From: Eubacteriales bacterium
GTDB taxonomy: Bacteria > Bacillota > Clostridia > JANYKE01
Length of the DNA stretch: 16,940 nucleotides
NCBI GenBank assembly: GCA_025361685.1
Contig: JANYKE010000047.1
Location: 1-16,940, forward strand
Direction: 5' to 3'
The number at the start of each line of letters is the position of its first letter. Position 1 is the stretch's first letter. The translations under genes were made by a program, and so were the position numbers. The notes under the pieces were generated by a model. It was not told the DNA's origin, made no database searches, and saw nothing but the letters and a program-made list of their open reading frames with translations. Positions 4,246-15,318 of the stretch are shown in pieces.

Positions 4246-5604
4246 TTAATTTCTCATGCTATGAATGGGGGCAGGTATTCTGCCCCCTCTTTTTATAAAA
4301 TCTGCGCTGGAGAATTTGTTTAGTTCCATCACCGGTCCTGAACCAAGCAATCCACCGAATTCGACTATGTCTCCAATTCCTTTACCTATTGCAGGAATTA
4401 TTCTAACAGCAGTTGTCTTTCCATTTATCACGCCTATGGCTGACTCATCTGCAATAATCGCTGCAATAGTTTCTGCACTTGTATCTCCGGGCACGGCGAT
4501 CATATCAAGACCAACAGAACATACGCACGTCATCGCTTCAAGCTTGTCAAATGAGAGTGCTCCACACTTTACTGCTTCAATCATCCCAATGTCTTCACTG
4601 ACCGGAATGAAAGCACCGCTAAGTCCCCCAACAAAGGAGGATGCCATGGTGCCGCCTTTTTTTACTGCATCGTTTAGCATTGCAAGTGCGGCAGTAGTTC
4701 CATGTGTTCCGCACTTTTCAAGCCCCATCTCCTCCAAAATATATGCAACACTGTCGCCGGCAAATGGCGTGGGTGCAAGAGACAAATCAACAATACCGAA
4801 TGGTACATTGAGTCTGCTTGATGCTTCACGTGCCACTAGCTGACCCATGCGTGTAATCTTGAATGCTGTCTTCTTAATTGTTTCTGCCAAAACTTCAAAA
4901 TCAGCTCCCCTAACTTTTTCAATAGCCGCTTTAATTGCACCCGGACCGCTAACTCCAACATTTATAACGCATTCACCCTCACCCACACCGTGAAACGCTC
5001 CTGCCATAAAGGGATTATCCTCAACCGCATTTGCAAATACGACGAGTTTTGCACAAGCACTTCCATTTTCAGACGAACTCATTTCTGCTGTACTTTTTAT
5101 TATTCTACCCATCAAGGAAACTGCATCCATATTTATTCCGGCTCTTGTCGTAGCAACATTTACTGAAGAACAAACTTTTTTTGTTGAACTAAGCGCTTCG
5201 GGTATAGAATTGACAAGTCTGGTATCTCCGACAGTAAATCCTTTGTGAACAAGCGCAGAAAATCCACCAATGAAATTTACGCCTGCGTTATCTGCAGCCT
5301 TATCGAGAGTCTCAGCAAATTTCACATAATTTTCTTCATCGCTACTCTCGGCAATCATCGAAATCGGTGAAACTGATATTCTTTTATTTATAATCGGAAC
5401 GCCATATTCTTTTTCAATTTGATTGCCGACCTTCACAAGATTCTTGGCAAGAAAATTTATTTTGTCATAAATTTTTTGTCTGCATCTATCAGCATTTGAA
5501 TCACAGCAATCTCGAAGAGATATTCCCATTGTAATAGTTCTTATGTCCAGCTTGTCTTGCTGAATCATCTTTATTGTCTCAATTACCTCATTTGTATTAA
5601 TCAT
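4246..5604 (-). CDS. UPF0210 / DUF711 (PFL-like fold) family protein
   Basis: The 452-residue protein matches UPF0210 over its full usual length. Landmarks are the N-terminal [14 protein letters not shown] region, central glycine-rich stretches ([29 protein letters not shown]) and the conserved end [11 protein letters not shown]. The family has a fold related to pyruvate formate-lyase-like proteins, but I know of no assigned reaction. I start at ATG 5604, which follows GAGGAA at a normal distance and gives the family N-terminus MINTNEV; a TTG at 5625 would add seven residues and lacks a better ribosome site. The ACT-domain gene ends 23 bases upstream, so the two are co-transcribed, as this pair is in many Firmicutes and archaea. 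Its 3' end overlaps the terminator of the convergent ABC operon. Confidence 0.93.
4267..4294 (+). terminator. Strong intrinsic terminator of the ABC exporter operon
   Basis: A perfect 8-bp GC-rich stem, GGGGGCAG (4267-4274) with CTGCCCCC (4280-4287), closes a 5-base loop GTATT and is followed by TCTTTTT (4288-4294). It lies 40 bases past the ATPase stop. On the other strand the same bases encode part of the conserved C-terminus of the UPF0210 protein (Gly-Gly-Arg-Ile-Pro-Ala-Pro), so it is a terminator embedded in a convergent coding sequence. There is no T-run on the minus-strand side, so it should act on plus-strand transcription only. Confidence 0.88.
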
Positions 5605-5627
5605 AATTTCCTCATTCCTTATCAAGT

Positions 5628-5897
5628 TTATATTCGATGCATTGATTTGAAAATATCTTCGTGCTGTATTCTGATGTCAAGTCCGATTTCCTTGCCGCAC
5701 TTTTCCAAAAGCTCAGATAACTTTATAAATTCTACATTCATTTTTGCAACCTCTACGTACATTACCATTGTAAATAAATTGTCCATAGTTGTTTGAGAAA
5801 TGTCGAGAATGTTTGCATTGCACTCACTTAGAATTTTGCTGATCGAGGATATGATTCCAACTTTATCCTCCCCAATTACTGTTACTACTGCTTTCAT
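5628..5897 (-). CDS. UPF0237 ACT-domain protein
   Basis: A small 89-residue protein that is essentially one ACT domain (beta-alpha-beta-beta-alpha-beta; residues 1 to about 75), starting [16 protein letters not shown], the typical UPF0237 opening with the GxDKxGI ligand-loop pattern. ACT domains usually bind amino acids and control partner enzymes, so a regulatory or ligand-binding subunit for the adjacent UPF0210 protein is a reasonable inference, not a demonstrated role. GGGGGAG lies just before ATG 5897. The gene is first in its own transcription unit: a near-consensus promoter at 5980-6008 and a terminator-like hairpin at 5924-5955 lie between it and dapL. Confidence 0.92.
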
Positions 5898-6019: not shown

Positions 6020-7201
6020 TCATTTTAAAATATCAGTGATTCTTTTCATTGCTTCTATTATATTGTCCTTGTCGCCAAATGATGTTAAGCGGAAAAAGCC
6101 TTCCCCGTTGGCGCCGAATCCTGCGCCCGGTGTGCCCACAACGTTAGCTTTGGTAAGCAGCAAATCAAAAAACTCCCACGATGATAAACCGTTTGGACAC
6201 TTAAGCCAGATGTATGGTGAATTTTTCCCACCGCTGTACCAAATCCCAAGTTTGCTAAGTGCATCAGAAATAATTTTTGCATTCTGCATATAATATGCAA
6301 TTCCTTCTTTTGTCTGATTTTGGCCTTCTTCGGAAAATACTGCTTCTGCGCCGCGTTGAACGATATATGATACACCGTTAAACTTTGTTCCTTGACGACG
6401 ACGCCACAATTTATTCAAGCCGACTTCATTTCTAACCAAGCTCTGTGGAACGATAGTGTATCCACAGCGAGTTCCGGTGAATCCTGCTGTCTTTGACAAT
6501 GAGCAAAATTCAATTGCGCATTTCTTTGCACCCTCGATTTGGAAAATACTTGTTGGAAGATTATCATCACAAACATATGCTTCATACGCTGAATCAAAAA
6601 GAATTATTGCATCGATTGAATTGGCATAATCTACCCAAATCTTTAACTGCTCTTTATTGTACACTGCGCCGGTTGGATTATTGGGCGAACAAAGATAAAC
6701 AATATCAAATTTCACATTTGTATCCGGCATTGGTAAAAAAGTATTTCCTATATTTCCATCAATGAAAGATGCTTCTCGGCCAACCATAATATTCGTGTCA
6801 GCATATACCGGATAAACCGGATCAGGAATCACTACTGCATTGTCTGCGCCAAAAATATCCAGTATATTTGCAGTATCACTTTTTGCTCCATCGCAAATAA
6901 ATATTTCATTCTCATCAATACTAACACCTTTTTTTGCATAATATCCGGCTACAGAACTTTTCAAAAAGTCATAGCCTTGATTATCATCATATCCACGAAA
7001 TGTTTTGGCATCGCCCATTTCGATTGCTGCGTTTTTCATAGCATCAACAACAACCGGTGCAAGTGGCAAAGTTACATCTCCGATACCTAGGCGAATAATA
7101 TCTTTATCCGGATTGGCTGCCTTAAACTCTTTAACTTTGCGCGCAATTTCAGCAAATAAATAATTGTCTTTTAGGTTTAGATAGTTCTGATTGATGTTCA
7201 T
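6020..7201 (-). CDS. dapL: LL-diaminopimelate aminotransferase
   Basis: PLP-dependent class I/II aminotransferase that converts tetrahydrodipicolinate plus glutamate directly to LL-2,6-diaminopimelate, bypassing the acylated intermediates of lysine and peptidoglycan precursor synthesis. The 393-residue protein has the DapL opening (YLFAEIARKV ... IIRLGIGDVTLPL). It also carries the SPNNPTG motif (172-178), Asp204 and Tyr207 in LFDSAYEAY for the cofactor ring, the Schiff-base Lys237 in SLSKTAGFTGTRCGY, and an arginine in FFRLTSFG near the C-terminus. AGGAGGAAAAT precedes ATG 7201, and the pyrG stop is 9 bases upstream, so dapL is the last gene of the operon. The enzyme for the next step, DapF, is encoded two positions earlier, fused to CarB. 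Confidence 0.95.
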   Translation of the reverse strand: MNINQNYLNLKDNYLFAEIARKVKEFKAANPDKDIIRLGIGDVTLPLAPVVVDAMKNAAIEMGDAKTFRGYDDNQGYDFLKSSVAGYYAKKGVSIDENEIFICDGAKSDTANILDIFGADNAVVIPDPVYPVYADTNIMVGREASFIDGNIGNTFLPMPDTNVKFDIVYLCSPNNPTGAVYNKEQLKIWVDYANSIDAIILFDSAYEAYVCDDNLPTSIFQIEGAKKCAIEFCSLSKTAGFTGTRCGYTIVPQSLVRNEVGLNKLWRRRQGTKFNGVSYIVQRGAEAVFSEEGQNQTKEGIAYYMQNAKIISDALSKLGIWYSGGKNSPYIWLKCPNGLSSWEFFDLLLTKANVVGTPGAGFGANGEGFFRLTSFGDKDNIIEAMKRITDILK

Positions 7202-7210
7202 ATTTTCCTC

Positions 7211-8809
7211 CTAAATTTTGTTAATTGCATTTTCGACAAATGCCGAGAATAGTGGGTGTGGCCTGTTTGGACGGCTTTTGAATTCCGGATGAAATTGAAC
7301 TGCGACATAAAAATCATTTTTCGAAATTTCAATTGCTTCAACAAGCATTTTGTCCGGTGAAAGCCCGCATATCTTAAATCCTTTTTCTTCGAACTCTTCC
7401 CTGTATGCATTGTTGAATTCATATCTGTGTCTGTGACGCTCATCAATATGATTTGTCTTGTACGCTTTCTCCATTATTGTTCCTTCAACAATATCGCATG
7501 GATATGAGCCAAGTCTCATTGTTCCACCCTTGTACTTGATTTTTTGCTGTTCTTCCATGAGATCGATTACACTGTTACAGCCGTTCTCATCAAACTCGCT
7601 CGAATTGGCATCACTGAGATTGCAAACATTTCTGGCAAATTCAATAGATGCGATATGCATGCCAAGACAAATTCCAAAATATGGAATATTGTTTTCTCTT
7701 GCATATTGTGCTGCGACAATCATGCCTTCAATGCCTCTTTCGCCAAACCCACCCGGAATGAGAATTCCTTGTGCAGCTTTGAGTACATCACCAACATTTT
7801 CTTTCGTAATCTTTTCACTATCTGTCCACATTATTTCAACCTTCGTGCCATATTCATATCCGGCATGGCTGAGCGCTTCAATAATTGATAAGTATGCGTC
7901 GCATAATTTTGTATATTTGCCAACAATTGCTATTTTAACGGTTTTATCTCTCTTCTTTATTATATTAACCATATCTTCCCATGAAGACATGTCCGGTTTT
8001 GGAGCATCTATTTTTAGTTCTCTGCAAACAACCTCATCGAGGCCATTCTCGTGCAGCATCACCGGTGCTTCATAAAGACAAGATAATGTCAGATTAACAA
8101 TAACGCAATCAGGTTTAACATTACAGAAAAGCGATATCTTAGATTTAATTCCGTCATCAAGTGGCTCATCTGCTCTGGCAATAATAATGTTTGGAGAAAT
8201 ACCGATTGAACGCAGTTCTTTAACCGAATGCTGTGTTGGTTTTGATTTGTGCTCATTCGATCCTCGTAAATACGGGACTAATGTTACATGGATAAACAAA
8301 CAATTTTCAGTTCCCACATCCAGTGAAACCTGTCTGATTGCTTCTAAGAACGGCTGGCTCTCGATATCACCGATTGTCCCACCGATTTCAGTTATCAGAA
8401 CATCGGCTTCGCTGTTCTTGGCGCTTGAATAGATAAAATCCTTTATCTCATTTGTAATGTGCGGGATAACCTGTACTGTTTCGCCAAGATATCCGCCGGC
8501 ACGCTCACGAGTTAACACATTGAAATAAACCTTACCGGAAGTTAGATTGGAAAACTTCGTGAGGTTCTCATCAATGAATCGCTCGTAGTGTCCAAGATCA
8601 AGATCCGTCTCGGCTCCGTCATCGGTTACATAAACCTCACCATGTTGAAACGGGCTCATCGTGCCGGGATCAACATTCATGTACGGATCAAGCTTTTGTG
8701 CGGCAACCTTTAAACCGCGCAGCTTTAGCAGTCGGCCCAGAGAAGCTGCAGTAATGCCCTTACCAAGTCCTGAAACAACTCCGCCTGTTACAAAAATGTA
8801 CTTTGTCAT
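7211..8809 (-). CDS. pyrG: CTP synthase
   Basis: Makes CTP from UTP, ATP and glutamine in the cytoplasm. The 532-residue protein has an N-terminal amidoligase domain (about 1-265; [13 protein letters not shown] with P-loop SGLGKG at 13-18; the [20 protein letters not shown] region) and a C-terminal class I glutaminase domain with Cys381 in GICLGMH and the His507/Glu509 pair in FHPEF. The glutamine that normally follows GICLGM is His385 here. Start is ATG 8809, preceded by AAGGAG inside the end of carB-dapF and overlapping that gene's TGA as ATGA, which implies translational coupling. An upstream in-frame start at 8863 would add 18 residues that do not belong to the family. dapL follows after 9 bases. 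Confidence 0.97.
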
Positions 8810-9645
8810 ATCTCTATCACTCCTTCGAAAACTTTTGTACAGCCCCCTGTCATATATACGCATTCATCGGTATAATTTACAACAAGCTCGCCACCAAGCA
8901 AAATCACCTTAACATCCTCACCTTTATTACAGTAGCCATTTAATACAGCAGCAACAACCGCGGCACATGCGCCTGTTCCGCATGCAAGAGTCTCGCCGCT
9001 TCCGCGCTCCCAAACTCGCATCTTCAATGTCTTGCTATCAATTACTTTTATAAATTCTGTGTTAACTCTTTCAGGAAACAGCGGATCATTTTCAAACTTC
9101 GGTCCGAGTTTTTCCAAATCAAGCATATCAACTTCATCATAAAATAAAATCGCATGCGGATTTCCCATTGAAACACATGTAATATTATATTCTTTGTCAT
9201 CAATAATGTACGGTGCATTTACAACCTGATCGCCTTTCATTTTTACAGGTATCTTTTCCGGATCAAGCTCTGCCTTACCCATGTTAACCTTGACTGATGA
9301 CACAAGCCCATTTTGCGTGTTGAGAAACAGTTCCTTAATTCCGCTCAAAGTATCAATCGTCATTGTGGTCTTAGGAATAATTTTGTTATCATACAGATAT
9401 TTTGCAACACACCTGATTGCATTGCCGCACATTTTGCCTTCACTTCCGTCCAAATTAAACATGCGCATTTTAGCATCAGCAATATCTGATTTGCAAATCA
9501 ATACTACACCGTCGCCGCCAATGCTGAAGTGTCTGTCAGACAAAACAACTGATAATGATTCCGGATAATTAATTTCGTTTTCAAGGCAGTTAATATAAAT
9601 ATAATCATTGCCCGATCCTTGCATTTTCGTAAATTCTACTCTCAT
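8806..9645 (-). CDS. dapF: Stand-alone diaminopimelate epimerase from an internal start (alternative product)
   Basis: Within the carB-dapF frame, ATG 9645 begins [15 protein letters not shown], which is where free DapF proteins start, and gives 279 residues, the family's normal size. Catalytic cysteines are C73 and C222 in this numbering. AGGAG lies 7 bases upstream (9657-9653), as good as any ribosome site in the operon. Three situations would look the same in sequence: a fusion only, a fusion plus free DapF by internal initiation, or two normal genes with an indel in this sequence. The domain identity is secure; that this segment exists as a separate protein is inferred. Confidence 0.5.
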
Positions 9646-12600
9646 ACGCTCACTCCTCATTTCATTAATATCAACCAGCTCAGTATTTATTTCACTATAC
9701 CTGCTCAAAATACTATCTGCCAGTGCATTTGCAGTATCTAGCGAAGTAAGACAGGGTATTCCAAGTATACAAGCTCGTCTTCGGATTTTAACATCATCGT
9801 CTGCCGGATTGCGTCCTTTTTCTGAAGTTGAAATTATGTATGCGAGCTTGCCACTTTCAATAATTGTCATCGTGTTATTATCCGGGCTATCGTGAATTTT
9901 ATTTAGCACAGAAACGTCAAATCCAGCGCTGCTGAGCACTTTTGCAGTACCTTCTGTTGCAAACAACGTAAAGCCGGCAATTGCAAATTTTTTAACAACT
10001 GCTGATATTTCCCCCTTGTCACTGTTCCGAACTGTAACAAGCACGCCTCCTCGCTTGCCCATCTTATATCCGGCTGCAACAAGTCCTTTATAAAGTGCCT
10101 CTTCAATATTCTTGCCTATTCCCAAAACCTCGCCTGTCGATTTCATCTCAGGCCCAAGGTGCGTATCAACATCAATAAGCTTTTCAAAAGAAAACACAGG
10201 AACCTTGACTGCGGTATATGGCGGTATTTTATATATTCCTGTTCCATAGCCGAACCCGCCAAGTTTTTCACCGATGCTTGCTCTTGTGGCAAGTTCACAC
10301 ATTGGCACACCTGTGACTTTACTTAAATATGGAACAGTTCGCGATGCTCGCGGATTAACCTCTATTACATATATTTCATTTTCAATAACAATGTATTGCA
10401 GATTTACCAATCCTTTGACATTTAATGCTAAACATATTTTTTTGGTCTCATCAAAAATTTCCTCTGCCAAGCAGTCTTCAATGTTAACCGATGGATATAC
10501 CGCAATGCTGTCCCCCGAGTGAATACCTGTACGCTCGATGTGCTCCATTATTCCCGGAATCAAAACCTCTTGACCATCACATATTGCATCAACTTCAATT
10601 TCGCGCCCGCTCAAATATTTGTCTATAAGCACCGGATTGCTCTGCTTCTGTCTGAGAATAATTTCCATGTACTCTTTAATATCATTTACGGTAAATGCAA
10701 TAATCATATTTTGACCGCCAAGCACGTATGATGGGCGCATCAAAACCGGATATCCTAAATCCTCCGCTGCCTTAACAGCCTCCTTTTCGGTCATAATGCT
10801 GTAGCCCTTTGGGCGCTTAAAGTTCAACTCTTCAAGAAGATTATCGAAGCGCTCTCTGTCTTCGCAAATGTCAATGCTTTCTGCAGATGTTCCTATAATG
10901 TTTACGCCATTTTCTGCAAGCTTTTGGGTAAGTTTAATCGCTGTCCCGCCTCCAAAAGCAACAATAACGCCAATCGGTTTTTCAATATTAATTACATTCA
11001 TTACATCTTCGATGTTGAGCGGTTCGAAATATAATCTGTCGGCTGTGTCAAAGTCAGTTGATACAGTTTCTGGATTATTATTTATTACTATTACCTCATA
11101 GCCCATACTTTTCAGTGCCCACACGCAGTGAACGCAAGCATAGTCAAACTCAATTCCCTGACCGATTCTAATCGGACCTGAACCAAGAACAATAACGCGT
11201 TCCTTCGTGCTTTTTTCAACAAACTCGCCCGCCTCATCTTCGCCACCGTAAATTGCATAAAAATACGGAGTCTCTGCAGCAAACTCGCCGCCACATGTAT
11301 CAACCATTTTATATATTGGCACGATAGGAGTGATATCTTTGCCGGATATTTGCTGCAATGCTGCATCGGTAAATCCAAGTTTCTTGCCTTCGTAATAATC
11401 AATGTCTTGTCCCTTGTTTTCAAAATCAGCGATGTTTTTTATCTTGTATAAAAACCAACGATCGACTTTTGTAATTTGGAATATCTCATCAATTTCTACT
11501 CCGCGCTTAATTGCTTCATACAACACAAACAAGCGCTCATCCGTCACGCGCGATAGCATTGCAACAATTTCTTTGTCAGTGCATCCTTTAAGCTTTTTCA
11601 AATTCAAAGTTTCCTGACCAATCTCCGCGCCTCGTACTGCCTTCATCAAGGCAAGTTCAAACGTATCGGCAATGCTCATAACCTCGCCTGTCGCTTTCAT
11701 CTGTGTTCCCAGATCTCTCTTGGCATAGACGAATTTATCAAATGGCCATTTTGGAAATTTAACTGCGACATAATCAAGTGTCGGTTCAAATGCAGAATAT
11801 GTTTTTCCGGTTACTGCATTGACAATTTCATCCAGCGTATATCCGATTGCGATTTTTGTTGCAATCTTGGCAATTGGATATCCTGTTGCTTTTGACGCAA
11901 GTGCCGATGATCTTGAAACACGAGGATTAACTTCAATAACTGCATATTCAAATGAATCCGGATGCAACGCAAACTGACAGTTACAGCCTCCTTCAACATC
12001 AAGTGCTGTAATAATATTCAATGCCGCCGAACGCAACATCTGATATTCTTTATCTGCGAGAGTTACGGCAGGTGCGATTACTATGCTGTCTCCGGTATGC
12101 ACTCCGACAGGATCAAGGTTTTCCATTGAGCAGACAGAAATTACGTTTCCAATTTTATCTCTCATAACTTCAAACTCGATTTCTTTCCAACCGGATATGC
12201 AGCTTTCAACCAGAATCTGATGTATTGGTGAGAGTGCTAATCCGTTTGTTGCAATTTCTATTAGCTCGGATTCATTATCAACTATCCCTCCACCGGTTCC
12301 TCCAAGCGTAAATGCCGGACGTACGATTACCGGATATCCGTTACCATTTGCAAACTTAATTGTTGTTTCGATATCTGTTGCAATTGCTGACGGAACAACG
12401 GGCTGATTTATGGACTGCATCGTATCTTTGAAAATCTGTCTGTCCTCAGCCTTATCAATCGTCTCGGGTGATGAACCAAGCAAGCGTACGTTCATCTTAT
12501 CAAGGAATCCATCCTTGGCCAGCTGCATGCACAGAGTAAGTCCTGTCTGCCCGCCAAGTCCTGACAGGATACTGTCCGGGCGTTCTTTTTCAATTATCCG

Positions 12601-12825
12601 TTCAATCGTAGTGAGCGTCAGCGGCTCTATATATATTTTATCCGCCATCGCATTATCTGTCATAATCGTTGCCGGATTAGAATTAACCAGCACAATTTCA
12701 ATGCCGTCTGCCTTGAGTACTCGGCAAGCTTGCGTACCGGCATAGTCAAACTCTGCTGCTTGTCCGATAACAATTGGTCCTGAGCCTATAACAAGAACTT
12801 TCTTTATCGATTTGTCGAGCGGCAT
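8806..12825 (-). CDS. carB-dapF: Carbamoyl-phosphate synthase large subunit fused to diaminopimelate epimerase
   Basis: One open frame of 1339 codons. Residues 1 to about 1055 are a complete CarB: N-half carboxyphosphate ATP-grasp (opening [25 protein letters not shown] at 90-95; [12 protein letters not shown] near 169), a central oligomerisation region, the carbamoyl-phosphate half (second IGSGP-like motif near 547; MRPSYVLGG near 696-704) and the C-terminal MGS allosteric domain (about 930-1050). Residues 1061-1339 are a complete 279-residue DapF with both catalytic cysteines, C1133 (MCGNAIRC) and C1282 (ACGTGAC). CarB uses ammonia from CarA; DapF turns LL- into meso-diaminopimelate. The linker is only about five residues. 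CarB usually ends near 1060-1075 residues, so neither partner is truncated. ATG 12825 directly abuts the carA stop, with GGAGGT inside carA. Residue 627 is Gly where the family FGGQT motif has Gln. A single-base difference near 9660 would split the genes, so an assembly or sequencing error must be excluded. Confidence 0.9.
9643..9657 (-). promoter_or_regulatory. Internal ribosome-binding site and ATG for dapF at the fusion junction
   Basis: Minus strand AGGAG at 9657-9653, a 7-base spacer, then ATG at 9645-9643. Both other frames meet a TGA at the junction: 9659-9657 and 9652-9650. An ancestral carB ending here and overlapping the dapF ribosome site would therefore need only a one- or two-base shift. 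The retained signal is the main evidence that separate DapF could still be made. Confidence 0.65.
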
Positions 12826-13896
12826 TTATTTTACCTCCATCGCGTTTATGAATTTATCAAACAAGAATGTCGTATCAAGAGGGCCGCCACAGGCCTCAGG
12901 GTGAAACTGTACCGAACATACCGGCACATTTTCATAAATGATTCCTTCGCATGTTTCATCATTAACATTTACAAACCACTCTTTTGCAATTTCTTTATCA
13001 ATGCTGTCGGATACAACAGCATATCCATGATTCTGACTTGTAATGTAAGTTCTGCCTGTCAATAAATCCTTGGCCGGCTGATTGGCTCCTCTGTGTCCAT
13101 ACTTTAACTTCTCCGTTTTAAATCCTTGCGAAAGTGCCAGCAATTGATGCCCAAGGCAAATTCCGAATATTGGTATTCCAGATGAAAACAGTTTAGCCAA
13201 ATTGCTGATTACCTCTGTGTTTTCTTCCGGGTCCCCCGGTCCGTTGGAAAGCATTATTCCATCCGGTGCAATCTTAATAATATCTTCTGCTGATGTATCG
13301 TGTGGCAGCACAGTAACACTGCATCCCCGCTTCATTAGCTCTCTTCCGATATTTTCCTTCAGCCCAAAATCCAGCAGTACAACTTTGAATTTGCCATCGT
13401 CATTATTTTCATATGAATTTTTTGTGGATACACTTTCAACTGCCTTAACAACTTTATAGTCCTTAATTTCATCAATATTTTCAAGCGAATTTGTCTTTGA
13501 TATTTTGCCATTCATTACTCCGCTTTCGCGAATGATCTTTGTCAATGTGCGAGTATCAATGTCATACAGTCCGATAATATTTTGTTCTTTTAGAAACTTA
13601 TCGATGTCGCCCTCGCTTCTAAAGTTTGAAGGTTCCTTGCACCATTCTCTGACAATGTATCCGCGTGCGGCAATTCTTTTGCTTTCGAAGTCAGGAGGTA
13701 TTACGCCATAATTTCCAATCAATGGAAATGTTTGAGTAATTATCTGTCCGTAATAACTTTTGTCGGTAAGCGTCTCCAAATATCCGGTCATTCCGGTGGT
13801 GAATACTACCTCTCCGATAATCTCACCCTCTGCACCGAATGACTTGCCTTCAAATACAGTTCCGTTTTCAAGTACTAAATATGCCTTTTCCGACAT
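12826..13896 (-). CDS. carA: Carbamoyl-phosphate synthase small (glutaminase) subunit
   Basis: Hydrolyses glutamine and passes ammonia to CarB for carbamoyl phosphate, the shared precursor of pyrimidines and arginine. The 356-residue protein has the N-terminal CarA-specific domain (about 1-150; LENGTVFEGKSFGA, VVFTTGMTGYLETLTD) and a class I amidotransferase domain (about 170-350) with nucleophile Cys247 in GICLGHQ and His332/Glu334 in FHPEACGGP. The start, ATG 13896, follows GGAGGAATAAGTA formed by the end of purF, three bases after that gene's stop. Its own stop touches the carB start with no spacer, so 1:1 synthesis by coupling is likely. Nothing unusual is seen in the protein itself. Confidence 0.97.
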   Translation of the reverse strand: MSEKAYLVLENGTVFEGKSFGAEGEIIGEVVFTTGMTGYLETLTDKSYYGQIITQTFPLIGNYGVIPPDFESKRIAARGYIVREWCKEPSNFRSEGDIDKFLKEQNIIGLYDIDTRTLTKIIRESGVMNGKISKTNSLENIDEIKDYKVVKAVESVSTKNSYENNDDGKFKVVLLDFGLKENIGRELMKRGCSVTVLPHDTSAEDIIKIAPDGIMLSNGPGDPEENTEVISNLAKLFSSGIPIFGICLGHQLLALSQGFKTEKLKYGHRGANQPAKDLLTGRTYITSQNHGYAVVSDSIDKEIAKEWFVNVNDETCEGIIYENVPVCSVQFHPEACGGPLDTTFLFDKFINAMEVK

Positions 13897-13899
13897 TAC

Positions 13900-15318
13900 T
13901 TATTCCTCCAAATTATTTTTTCTCTGCACGATAGTATTTCCGGTAAAACATTTTGTGCAAAACGATAATGAACTTTTGTTGCATGCCTTCTTAAGTCCTT
14001 CAATACTGATATATCCTAGACTGTCTGCGCCAATCTTTTCACATATCTTGGCAACATCCATTTTATTAGCAATTAACTTCTCTTCGTTGTCAATGTCTGT
14101 TCCATAATGACATGTGTATCGAAACGGCGGGGACGAAATTCGCATGTGTACTTCTTTTGCTCCTGCACTCTTGAGAAGCTTTACGATATTCGTACTTGTT
14201 GTTCCGCGAACAATGGAATCATCAACTAGGATTATTCTTTTGCCATCGATGTTAGCCTTAAGCGGATTTAGTTTAAGTCGCACTGCATTTTCCCTCTGCT
14301 TCTGTGTCGGATAAATGAAACTTCTTCCTATGTACCTGTTCTTAACGAATCCCGGCACAAGCGGAATTCCTATTTTGGCACTGTAGCCAAACGCCGCCTC
14401 AAGTCCGCTATCCGGAACGCCGCACACCACATCGGCCTCTATCGGATATTCTTCTGCAAGAACCGCGCCCATATTATATCTCGCTTCATAAACCGACAAG
14501 CCATCAATAATTGAATCCGGGCGGGCAAAATAAATATATTCGAATATGCAAAGTCCGCTGGCAGCATCCGTCTTTTCGATATGAATGCCTGAATAAGTAA
14601 TCCTGCCATCTTCTATTACCATTACTTCACCTGCAGCAATATCACGAATAAACCTAAATCCGCAGCTGTCAAGCGCGCAACTCTCAGATGCAACAGCGAT
14701 GCCGTCTTCATTTTCTCCGACACATAAAGGACGATATCCGCTCGCATCACGAACCGCAATCATTTTACCATTATCGCACATTACAATCAAGGTAAATGCA
14801 CCTTCAAGCATTTGCACTGCATTTATAACTCCTTGAAGCGCATCATTGGCCTTAACTATATGAAAAGCGATGAGCGAAGAAATAACTTCACTATCGCTTG
14901 TCGCTTCAAATCGAACTCCATAAGTTTTTAATTTCTCTCTTATCTCTTTTGCGTTTGTAACATTTCCATTATGTACTGTCGCGATTCTTCCGGTCAAATA
15001 TTCGGTGATGAACGGTCCCAAATTCATTTTTGTGTTGCTGCCGGTTGTTGAATATCTGTTATGACCGATTGCAACATTGCTGTCCGGAAGTTTTTCGAGA
15101 ACTTTTGTTGTAAACACTTCACTCACAAGACCTATGTCCTTGTGGCAGATTATTTTATTGCCATCCACAACTGCAATACCGCAGCCCTCCTGCCCTCGGT
15201 GGTTCATCGCAAGTAATGCGTTGTATGTGATTCCTACTGCTTCAAAACTATTAATGTTTATCCCAAAGACTGCGCATTCTTCTTTAAGTTTATCGGTAAT
15301 ATTCATTTTAGTTTTCAT
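13900..15318 (-). CDS. purF: Amidophosphoribosyltransferase (glutamine PRPP amidotransferase)
   Basis: First committed enzyme of purine synthesis: PRPP plus glutamine gives phosphoribosylamine. The 472-residue protein has an N-terminal nucleophile glutaminase domain with Cys15 in EECAVFGI preceded by a short propeptide, as in Bacillus PurF. It also has a phosphoribosyltransferase domain with the PRPP motif ILVDDSIVRGTTS (363-375). C257, C403, C454 and C457 match the spacing of the four [4Fe-4S] ligands of the Bacillus enzyme, so it should be an oxygen-labile cluster protein matured by self-cleavage. Two starts are possible: ATG 15318 (used here; AGAGGAG 13 bases upstream, overlapping the ANTAR gene by 11 bases) or ATG 15306 (one base after the ANTAR stop, with a 10-residue propeptide). 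Placement beside glnA and carAB, not in a pur cluster, points to control by nitrogen status. Confidence 0.96.
   Translation of the reverse strand: MKTKMNITDKLKEECAVFGININSFEAVGITYNALLAMNHRGQEGCGIAVVDGNKIICHKDIGLVSEVFTTKVLEKLPDSNVAIGHNRYSTTGSNTKMNLGPFITEYLTGRIATVHNGNVTNAKEIREKLKTYGVRFEATSDSEVISSLIAFHIVKANDALQGVINAVQMLEGAFTLIVMCDNGKMIAVRDASGYRPLCVGENEDGIAVASESCALDSCGFRFIRDIAAGEVMVIEDGRITYSGIHIEKTDAASGLCIFEYIYFARPDSIIDGLSVYEARYNMGAVLAEEYPIEADVVCGVPDSGLEAAFGYSAKIGIPLVPGFVKNRYIGRSFIYPTQKQRENAVRLKLNPLKANIDGKRIILVDDSIVRGTTSTNIVKLLKSAGAKEVHMRISSPPFRYTCHYGTDIDNEEKLIANKMDVAKICEKIGADSLGYISIEGLKKACNKSSLSFCTKCFTGNTIVQRKNNLEE

Follow-up and report, generated by a model that had tools for sequence, protein, structure and literature searches.

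Across the stretch of Eubacteriales DNA analysed here (16,940 nucleotides, hereafter the window), carB and dapF are genuinely joined in one gene. Specifically, an ATG-initiated open reading frame of 1339 codons, read from the sequence, runs uninterrupted on the minus strand (8806..12825) and encodes a full-length CarB, the large subunit of carbamoyl-phosphate synthase (CPS), followed by a full-length DapF, as the first-pass annotation of this DNA had reported. The 1339 aa product belongs to the CarB family TIGR01369 (residues 4-1037, 1391 bits against a cut-off of 1027) as well as to the DapF family TIGR00652 (residues 1064-1337, 283 bits against a cut-off of 114.65), and at 100 bits against a cut-off of 350 it falls outside NF038284, which describes bifunctional DapF/glutamate racemase. 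The CarB part (residues 1-1055; 9661..12825, minus strand) contains both ATP-grasp halves and the MGS domain (residues 940-1027 by Pfam), and the DapF part (residues 1061-1339; 8806..9645, minus strand, stop included) begins at Met1061 (nucleotide 9645) and directly follows the MGS domain, which is the position next to an allosteric domain that had been pointed out before. The spacer between the two is indeed only a few residues long, but the conserved stretch ahead of DapF (TELVDIN) is not part of it, being the native CarB tail (compare LVDINTL, followed by a stop, at the C-terminus of unfused CarB). Tail and linker together span 20 residues (9646..9705, minus strand) and are recognisable in fused relatives. 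Beyond what the annotation had claimed, the fused proteins make up a family that is both old and widespread, in which many members are without the first catalytic cysteine of DapF.

With respect to catalysis, both cysteines named in the annotation are present in the window, at residues 1133 (9427..9429, minus strand) and 1282 (8980..8982, minus strand), which correspond to Cys75 and Cys224 of Anabaena DapF. Residues that contact DAP analogues in the Anabaena enzyme were taken from the portion of PMC12039745 consulted. All ten that were checked are found in the window protein, namely N13, N64, G74, N75, N162, N195, E213, R214, G223 and T224 in the numbering of the DapF part. On the CarB side, the catalytic E/N/R residues of both ATP-grasp halves are present, and they occur at a frequency of 1.00 in the groups of fused proteins that keep or have lost the first DapF cysteine (Cys-kept and Cys-lost) and in unfused CarB alike. 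The MGS residues K937, T957, T960 and K976 are also in place, and the two lysines (10017-10015 and 9900-9898, minus strand) belong to the nucleotide site. Ddh makes meso-DAP without DapF, and the best match to it in the window genome (G000) reached 18.7 bits against a cut-off of 180.6; no second DapF and no second CarB were found there either, in an assembly of 237 contigs that, at 76% completeness, may have left out Ddh or a further dapF. Because both cysteines and all ten contacts are kept, and the fusion carries the sole DapF found in this 76% complete genome, with no Ddh, the window protein is predicted to be, probably, a working bifunctional enzyme.

The fused gene sits in a tightly packed run of genes, whose names were assigned by sequence reading, in the order glnA, ANTAR-like, purF, carA, carB::dapF, pyrG and dapL. 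A purF-like gene (13900..15318, minus strand) and carA (12826..13896, minus strand) lie upstream, the latter directly so; a pyrG-like gene (7211..8809, minus strand) overlaps the end of dapF in an ATGA, and it is followed by a dapL-like gene (6020..7201, minus strand) for an LL-diaminopimelate aminotransferase, whose product would make the substrate of DapF. Of the 114 fused loci whose flank exceeds 1300 nt, 107 have a CarA relative upstream, and the window was likewise assigned a CarA partner. DapL relatives were seen, within the available flanks, near 30 fused loci, of which 29 are Cys-kept (72 of 128 overall). In three loci (L127, L137 and L140), the gene immediately downstream of the fusion is a second, separate dapF, and relatives of pyrG and dapL come after it. 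Downstream of dapL, the window also contains a PFL/DUF711-like protein with an ACT-domain-like neighbour (4246-5897; names again by sequence reading).

The same arrangement recurs in many other genomes. When protein databases were searched with the DapF part for single CarB-plus-DapF proteins, as the annotation had proposed, 7018 of 7993 scored protein clusters matched, the window's own protein among them (candidates were limited to 736-2343 aa); the 120 rows listed all have CarB-type Pfam domains, as judged by eye, and the source names given among them are carbamoyl-phosphate synthase. At class level (391 genomes) at least 47 genomes, and at phylum level (398 genomes) at least 16, in each case with the window's own included, matched through both parts without a stop; G091 appears in both searches, and the class-level match in G011 is cut at query residue 1305. 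The order-level search returned the window's own genome alone, and the best match among 235 plasmid records was limited to query residues 1-1085. In named GTDB genomes, the 80 loci that best matched the DapF part divide into 61 fused and 19 unfused, and the fused records include one without a MAG label, from Ruminococcus sp. FC2018 (L126). The 129 fused loci collected contain at least two genomes duplicated across collections (L084 = L116 and L048 = L174, with identical CarB rows). In four of the loci (L083, L084, L085 and L086) the fused protein is 1314-1318 aa long and is missing about 30 residues near 470-504, around the oligomerisation domain, compared with the window.

These relatives also bear on whether a sequencing or assembly error removed a stop codon, a concern that the fragmented and incomplete window assembly might raise. 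The same junction is found in 68 distinct fused loci of many families, including the single-contig genomes G567, G591 and G192; all 68 have the tail motif and 65 share the same spacing to DapF, the exceptions being a longer linker in L046 and L095 and a variant in L082. The in-frame junction in relatives from other genomes rules out such an artefact, to which we assign a practically negligible probability. There is no sign of the indel near the junction that the annotation had named as a possible refutation, nor did separate carB and dapF genes with the same flanks turn up in close relatives, the nearest relatives found being fused.

In terms of origin, the CarB trees favour a single fusion event, after which the DapF part was lost on at least three occasions. 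In a FastTree phylogeny of 162 CarB rows (160 different), all fused rows fall in one clade together with three nested unfused rows, and the fused/unfused label needs four changes, for which a gain followed by three losses is the simplest account; with IQ-TREE, 39 of these rows gave five changes, at least four of them on starred branches, and placed the unfused L098 at the unresolved base of the fused clade. The three nested CarBs (L096, L102 and L115) appear to have lost the DapF part later. The DapF tree is less clear, with seven changes (four on starred branches), several standalone DapFs (L261, L120, L248, L151, L163 and L263) interspersed with fused DapFs, and L045/L046, although fused, outside the main fused group. 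Independent fusions, considered as an alternative, are not favoured by the CarB trees, the DapF tree being less clear on this point. Five of the standalone proteins (L261, L120, L248, L151 and L163) look, with modest support, like re-excised or copied domains. L045/L095 and L046 combine a longer linker with a CarB part inside the fused clade and a DapF part outside the main fused group, and a swapped DapF part is possible in L045/L046. One unfused carB-dapF pair lies adjacent, 47 nt apart (L097 = L156); it may be a candidate for the source of the fusion, but its DapF groups apart from the fused ones in a weakly resolved tree.

Unlike the window protein, many fused relatives lack the first catalytic cysteine. 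Among 128 fused proteins (L012, whose sequence ends before the site, was left out), this position holds Cys in 72, Ala in 26, Gly in 20, Ser in nine and Phe in one, so that the cysteine is lost in 56; on the CarB tree its state changes 17 times, with 10-11 changes forced by starred branches. Standalone DapFs, a set that includes two copied pairs (L156/L260 and L227/L259), have both cysteines in 62 of 63 cases, the exception being L258 (from G023), a DapF-like protein with Ser at both sites. In the 56 Cys-lost parts, nine contact positions are 95-100% kept (N64 in 55, G74 in 54, N75 in 56, N162 in 55, N195 in 53, E213 in 55, R214 in 53, G223 in 56 and T224 in 55), and erosion is seen at N13 (kept in 45) and at the second cysteine (46). 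The 57 non-pocket columns that are conserved in the Cys-keeping set are on average 94% kept in the same group, and pocket retention is thus only slightly better than fold retention. Pairwise Nei-Gojobori dN/dS values, for which several pairs are near saturation at silent sites, are 0.02-0.18 for the DapF part of 30 Cys-lost pairs, 0-0.06 for that of 21 Cys-kept pairs, and 0.014-0.068 for the CarB part of all 51 pairs; in most Cys-lost pairs evolution is faster in the DapF part than in the CarB part. These ratios indicate purifying selection on the DapF part, with some relaxation once the cysteine is lost. In the CarB alignment, K937 is missing in 19 of 25 Ala-type Cys-lost proteins and K976 in 13 of 25; both lysines are kept in all 20 Gly-type and all eight Ser-type proteins, and K937 is found in 68 of 70 Cys-kept proteins.

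We searched 69 fused genomes for other sources of meso-DAP, scoring Ddh as a match to TIGR01921 above cut-off, and used 67 of them (G023, where the site is cut, and G773 were left out). A second DapF was found in 26 of 35 Cys-lost genomes, with Ddh in eight of the other nine, as against six of 32 Cys-kept genomes, with Ddh in 20 of the remaining 26. The association of a second DapF with cysteine loss gives a Fisher p of 7e-6 with relatedness ignored; when relatedness is respected, there are seven independent pairs with a median p of 0.25 and hardly any in the opposite direction. Counting any other meso-DAP source, 34 of 35 Cys-lost genomes have one and so do 26 of 32 in the Cys-kept group (Fisher p 0.048), a property that separates the two groups poorly. 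Of the seven genomes with neither a second DapF nor Ddh, the window's own (G000), G592, G004, G325 and G176 keep the cysteine; so does G354, in a divergent DapF part where the rest of the pocket fails to align, and G378 (88% complete) is without it.

The annotation had proposed that the fusion ties the two activities together stoichiometrically. The fusion itself stands, yet strict stoichiometry is doubtful, since a Shine-Dalgarno sequence, AGGAG (9657-9653), precedes an ATG (9645-9643) at the start of DapF (9643..9657, minus strand) and forms a probable internal start. An ATG occurs at this position in 29 of 129 fused loci. In these, the Arg codon that forms the Shine-Dalgarno sequence is AGG in 14 of 29 cases, where the Arg codon usage of each gene predicts 3.1 (P 7e-8, relatedness ignored), as opposed to 9 of 94 against 11.6 expected in loci without the junction ATG. 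Moreover, a Shine-Dalgarno match of at least five bases precedes 11 of the 29 junction ATGs (18 clusters at 80% identity) but only 6.5% of the 1054 ATGs found elsewhere inside these genes (P 2e-6, again with relatedness ignored). Given this enrichment of the combination above internal controls, we consider it probable that a subset of fused loci, among them the window, produces free DapF in addition to the fusion. Among Cys-kept proteins 23 of 72 have the junction ATG, as against five of 56 Cys-lost proteins (p 0.002, relatedness ignored). Many fused loci also have an in-frame Met upstream (INxMR), and within the 18 codons ahead of the F.KM motif 20 of 68 loci have a start with a Shine-Dalgarno match of at least four, so that internal starts at other sites are possible. 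Separate translation without a fusion product is unlikely, since an ATG is missing from the DapF start in 100 of 129 loci (in 94 of them GTG and TTG as well) and the linker is conserved.

Judged from these sequence features, the simplest reading of the window is an active bifunctional enzyme plus free DapF: a CPS large subunit with DapF tethered behind its allosteric MGS domain would be made next to CarA, both halves would work, and the internal start would add free DapF. For the family, we lean, at a little under even confidence, towards a real bifunctional CPS/DapF in which the tethered DapF has an additional non-catalytic, DAP-binding role on CPS. Such a second role is suggested because the Cys-less DapF part persists under selection, and DAP binding is the favoured candidate because the contact residues stay. 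The tethered domain would most likely bind LL- or meso-DAP and pass its state to CPS, with the effect exerted through the neighbouring MGS domain. CarB and DapF share no substrate, as the annotation rightly stated, yet by general biochemistry the carbamoyl-phosphate and DAP routes both end in UDP-MurNAc-tripeptide, and carbamoyl phosphate (towards UTP) might thereby be matched to DAP as two inputs of this precursor. Where another meso-DAP source is present, catalysis could go, with Ala, Gly or Ser replacing the first Cys, and the binding pocket would stay; loss of the catalytic residue with retention of the pocket in some relatives hints at a regulatory role. More specifically, the tethered DapF could serve CPS as an allosteric sensor of DAP, an epimerase recruited for this purpose that stays catalytic where needed and became a pseudoenzyme many times elsewhere, and pyrimidine supply would thereby be coupled to that of cell-wall precursors. 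This proposal is possible but tentative, and the strong retention of non-pocket columns means that a structural role fits nearly as well.

That structural alternative would make the DapF part an oligomerisation or structural module that stabilises or assembles CPS, with catalysis secondary. DapF enzymes are dimers, and the whole fold, including the 57 non-pocket columns, is conserved in Cys-lost members; against this, the nine contact positions are kept slightly above those columns, the three nested CarBs do without the DapF part, and only one of 110 MGS columns is fused-specific, with no cluster that would mark a fused-specific MGS interface. The module is rather unlikely but a serious rival. 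Somewhat unlikely, and likewise a serious rival, is a chance fusion in a packed operon through loss of the carB stop, in which DapF was kept because it was needed, the halves are functionally unlinked, and the DapF part decays once another meso-DAP source appears. The tight gene packing with its ATGA overlap, the alternative sources in all but one of the Cys-lost genomes, the three nested CarBs without a DapF part, the faster evolution of the DapF part in Cys-lost groups, and the erosion of N13 and the second cysteine would all agree with it. However, a useless tail of 280 aa should soon be truncated by nonsense changes, whereas the Cys-lost parts stay open, with low dN/dS in all 30 pairs and with nine contact positions nearly invariant. 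Finally, the Cys-lost members could be alive and use a single base for an altered reaction, with DAP or a related amino acid as substrate, in line with their mostly intact substrate contacts and the second cysteine in 46 of 56; related enzymes with an altered first Cys exist. The replacement varies, however, and offers no single new acid/base residue, and we regard this reading as highly improbable.

No description of a CarB-DapF fusion was found in the open-access literature, subscription papers lying mostly outside that scope, which agrees with the annotation; the parts of PMC545781, PMC3478167 and PMC2705460 consulted do not describe one. Both enzymes were already known, and the fusion is new in print as far as the open-access literature goes. 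The protein is common in gut, rumen and other anaerobic Clostridia-type bacteria and is labelled CarB alone, and genome surveys of lysine and peptidoglycan synthesis can thus easily overlook its DapF half. Were the tethered DapF to regulate CPS, pyrimidine and peptidoglycan supply would be linked directly at the enzyme level, and the repeated cysteine losses constitute a natural series of catalytic variants.

Among known systems, CAD and URA2 are multi-enzyme CPS proteins in which the partners are a glutaminase part or pyrimidine enzymes. These proteins and mitochondrial CPS1, which was a match in the similarity search, share with the window protein a large CPS part fused to another enzyme or subunit, whereas the partner here is an enzyme of lysine and peptidoglycan synthesis. 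The Tyr and Thr of the ornithine site of E. coli CarB align with other residues in the window. E. coli CarB (PDB 1bxr/1a9x) otherwise resembles the window protein in its full length, both synthetase halves, MGS domain and adjacent carA, but lacks the C-terminal DapF. Likewise, DapF structures (PDB 2otn and 9mro) share the whole domain, both cysteines and the DAP-contact residues checked, but are not tethered to CarB, and 56 of 128 fused relatives differ from them in having lost the first cysteine. According to the portion of PMC4227774 consulted, E. coli DapF acts on another enzyme, RppH, by binding to it; there, however, the two are separate proteins and the process is mRNA decay, whereas here the partner is CPS.
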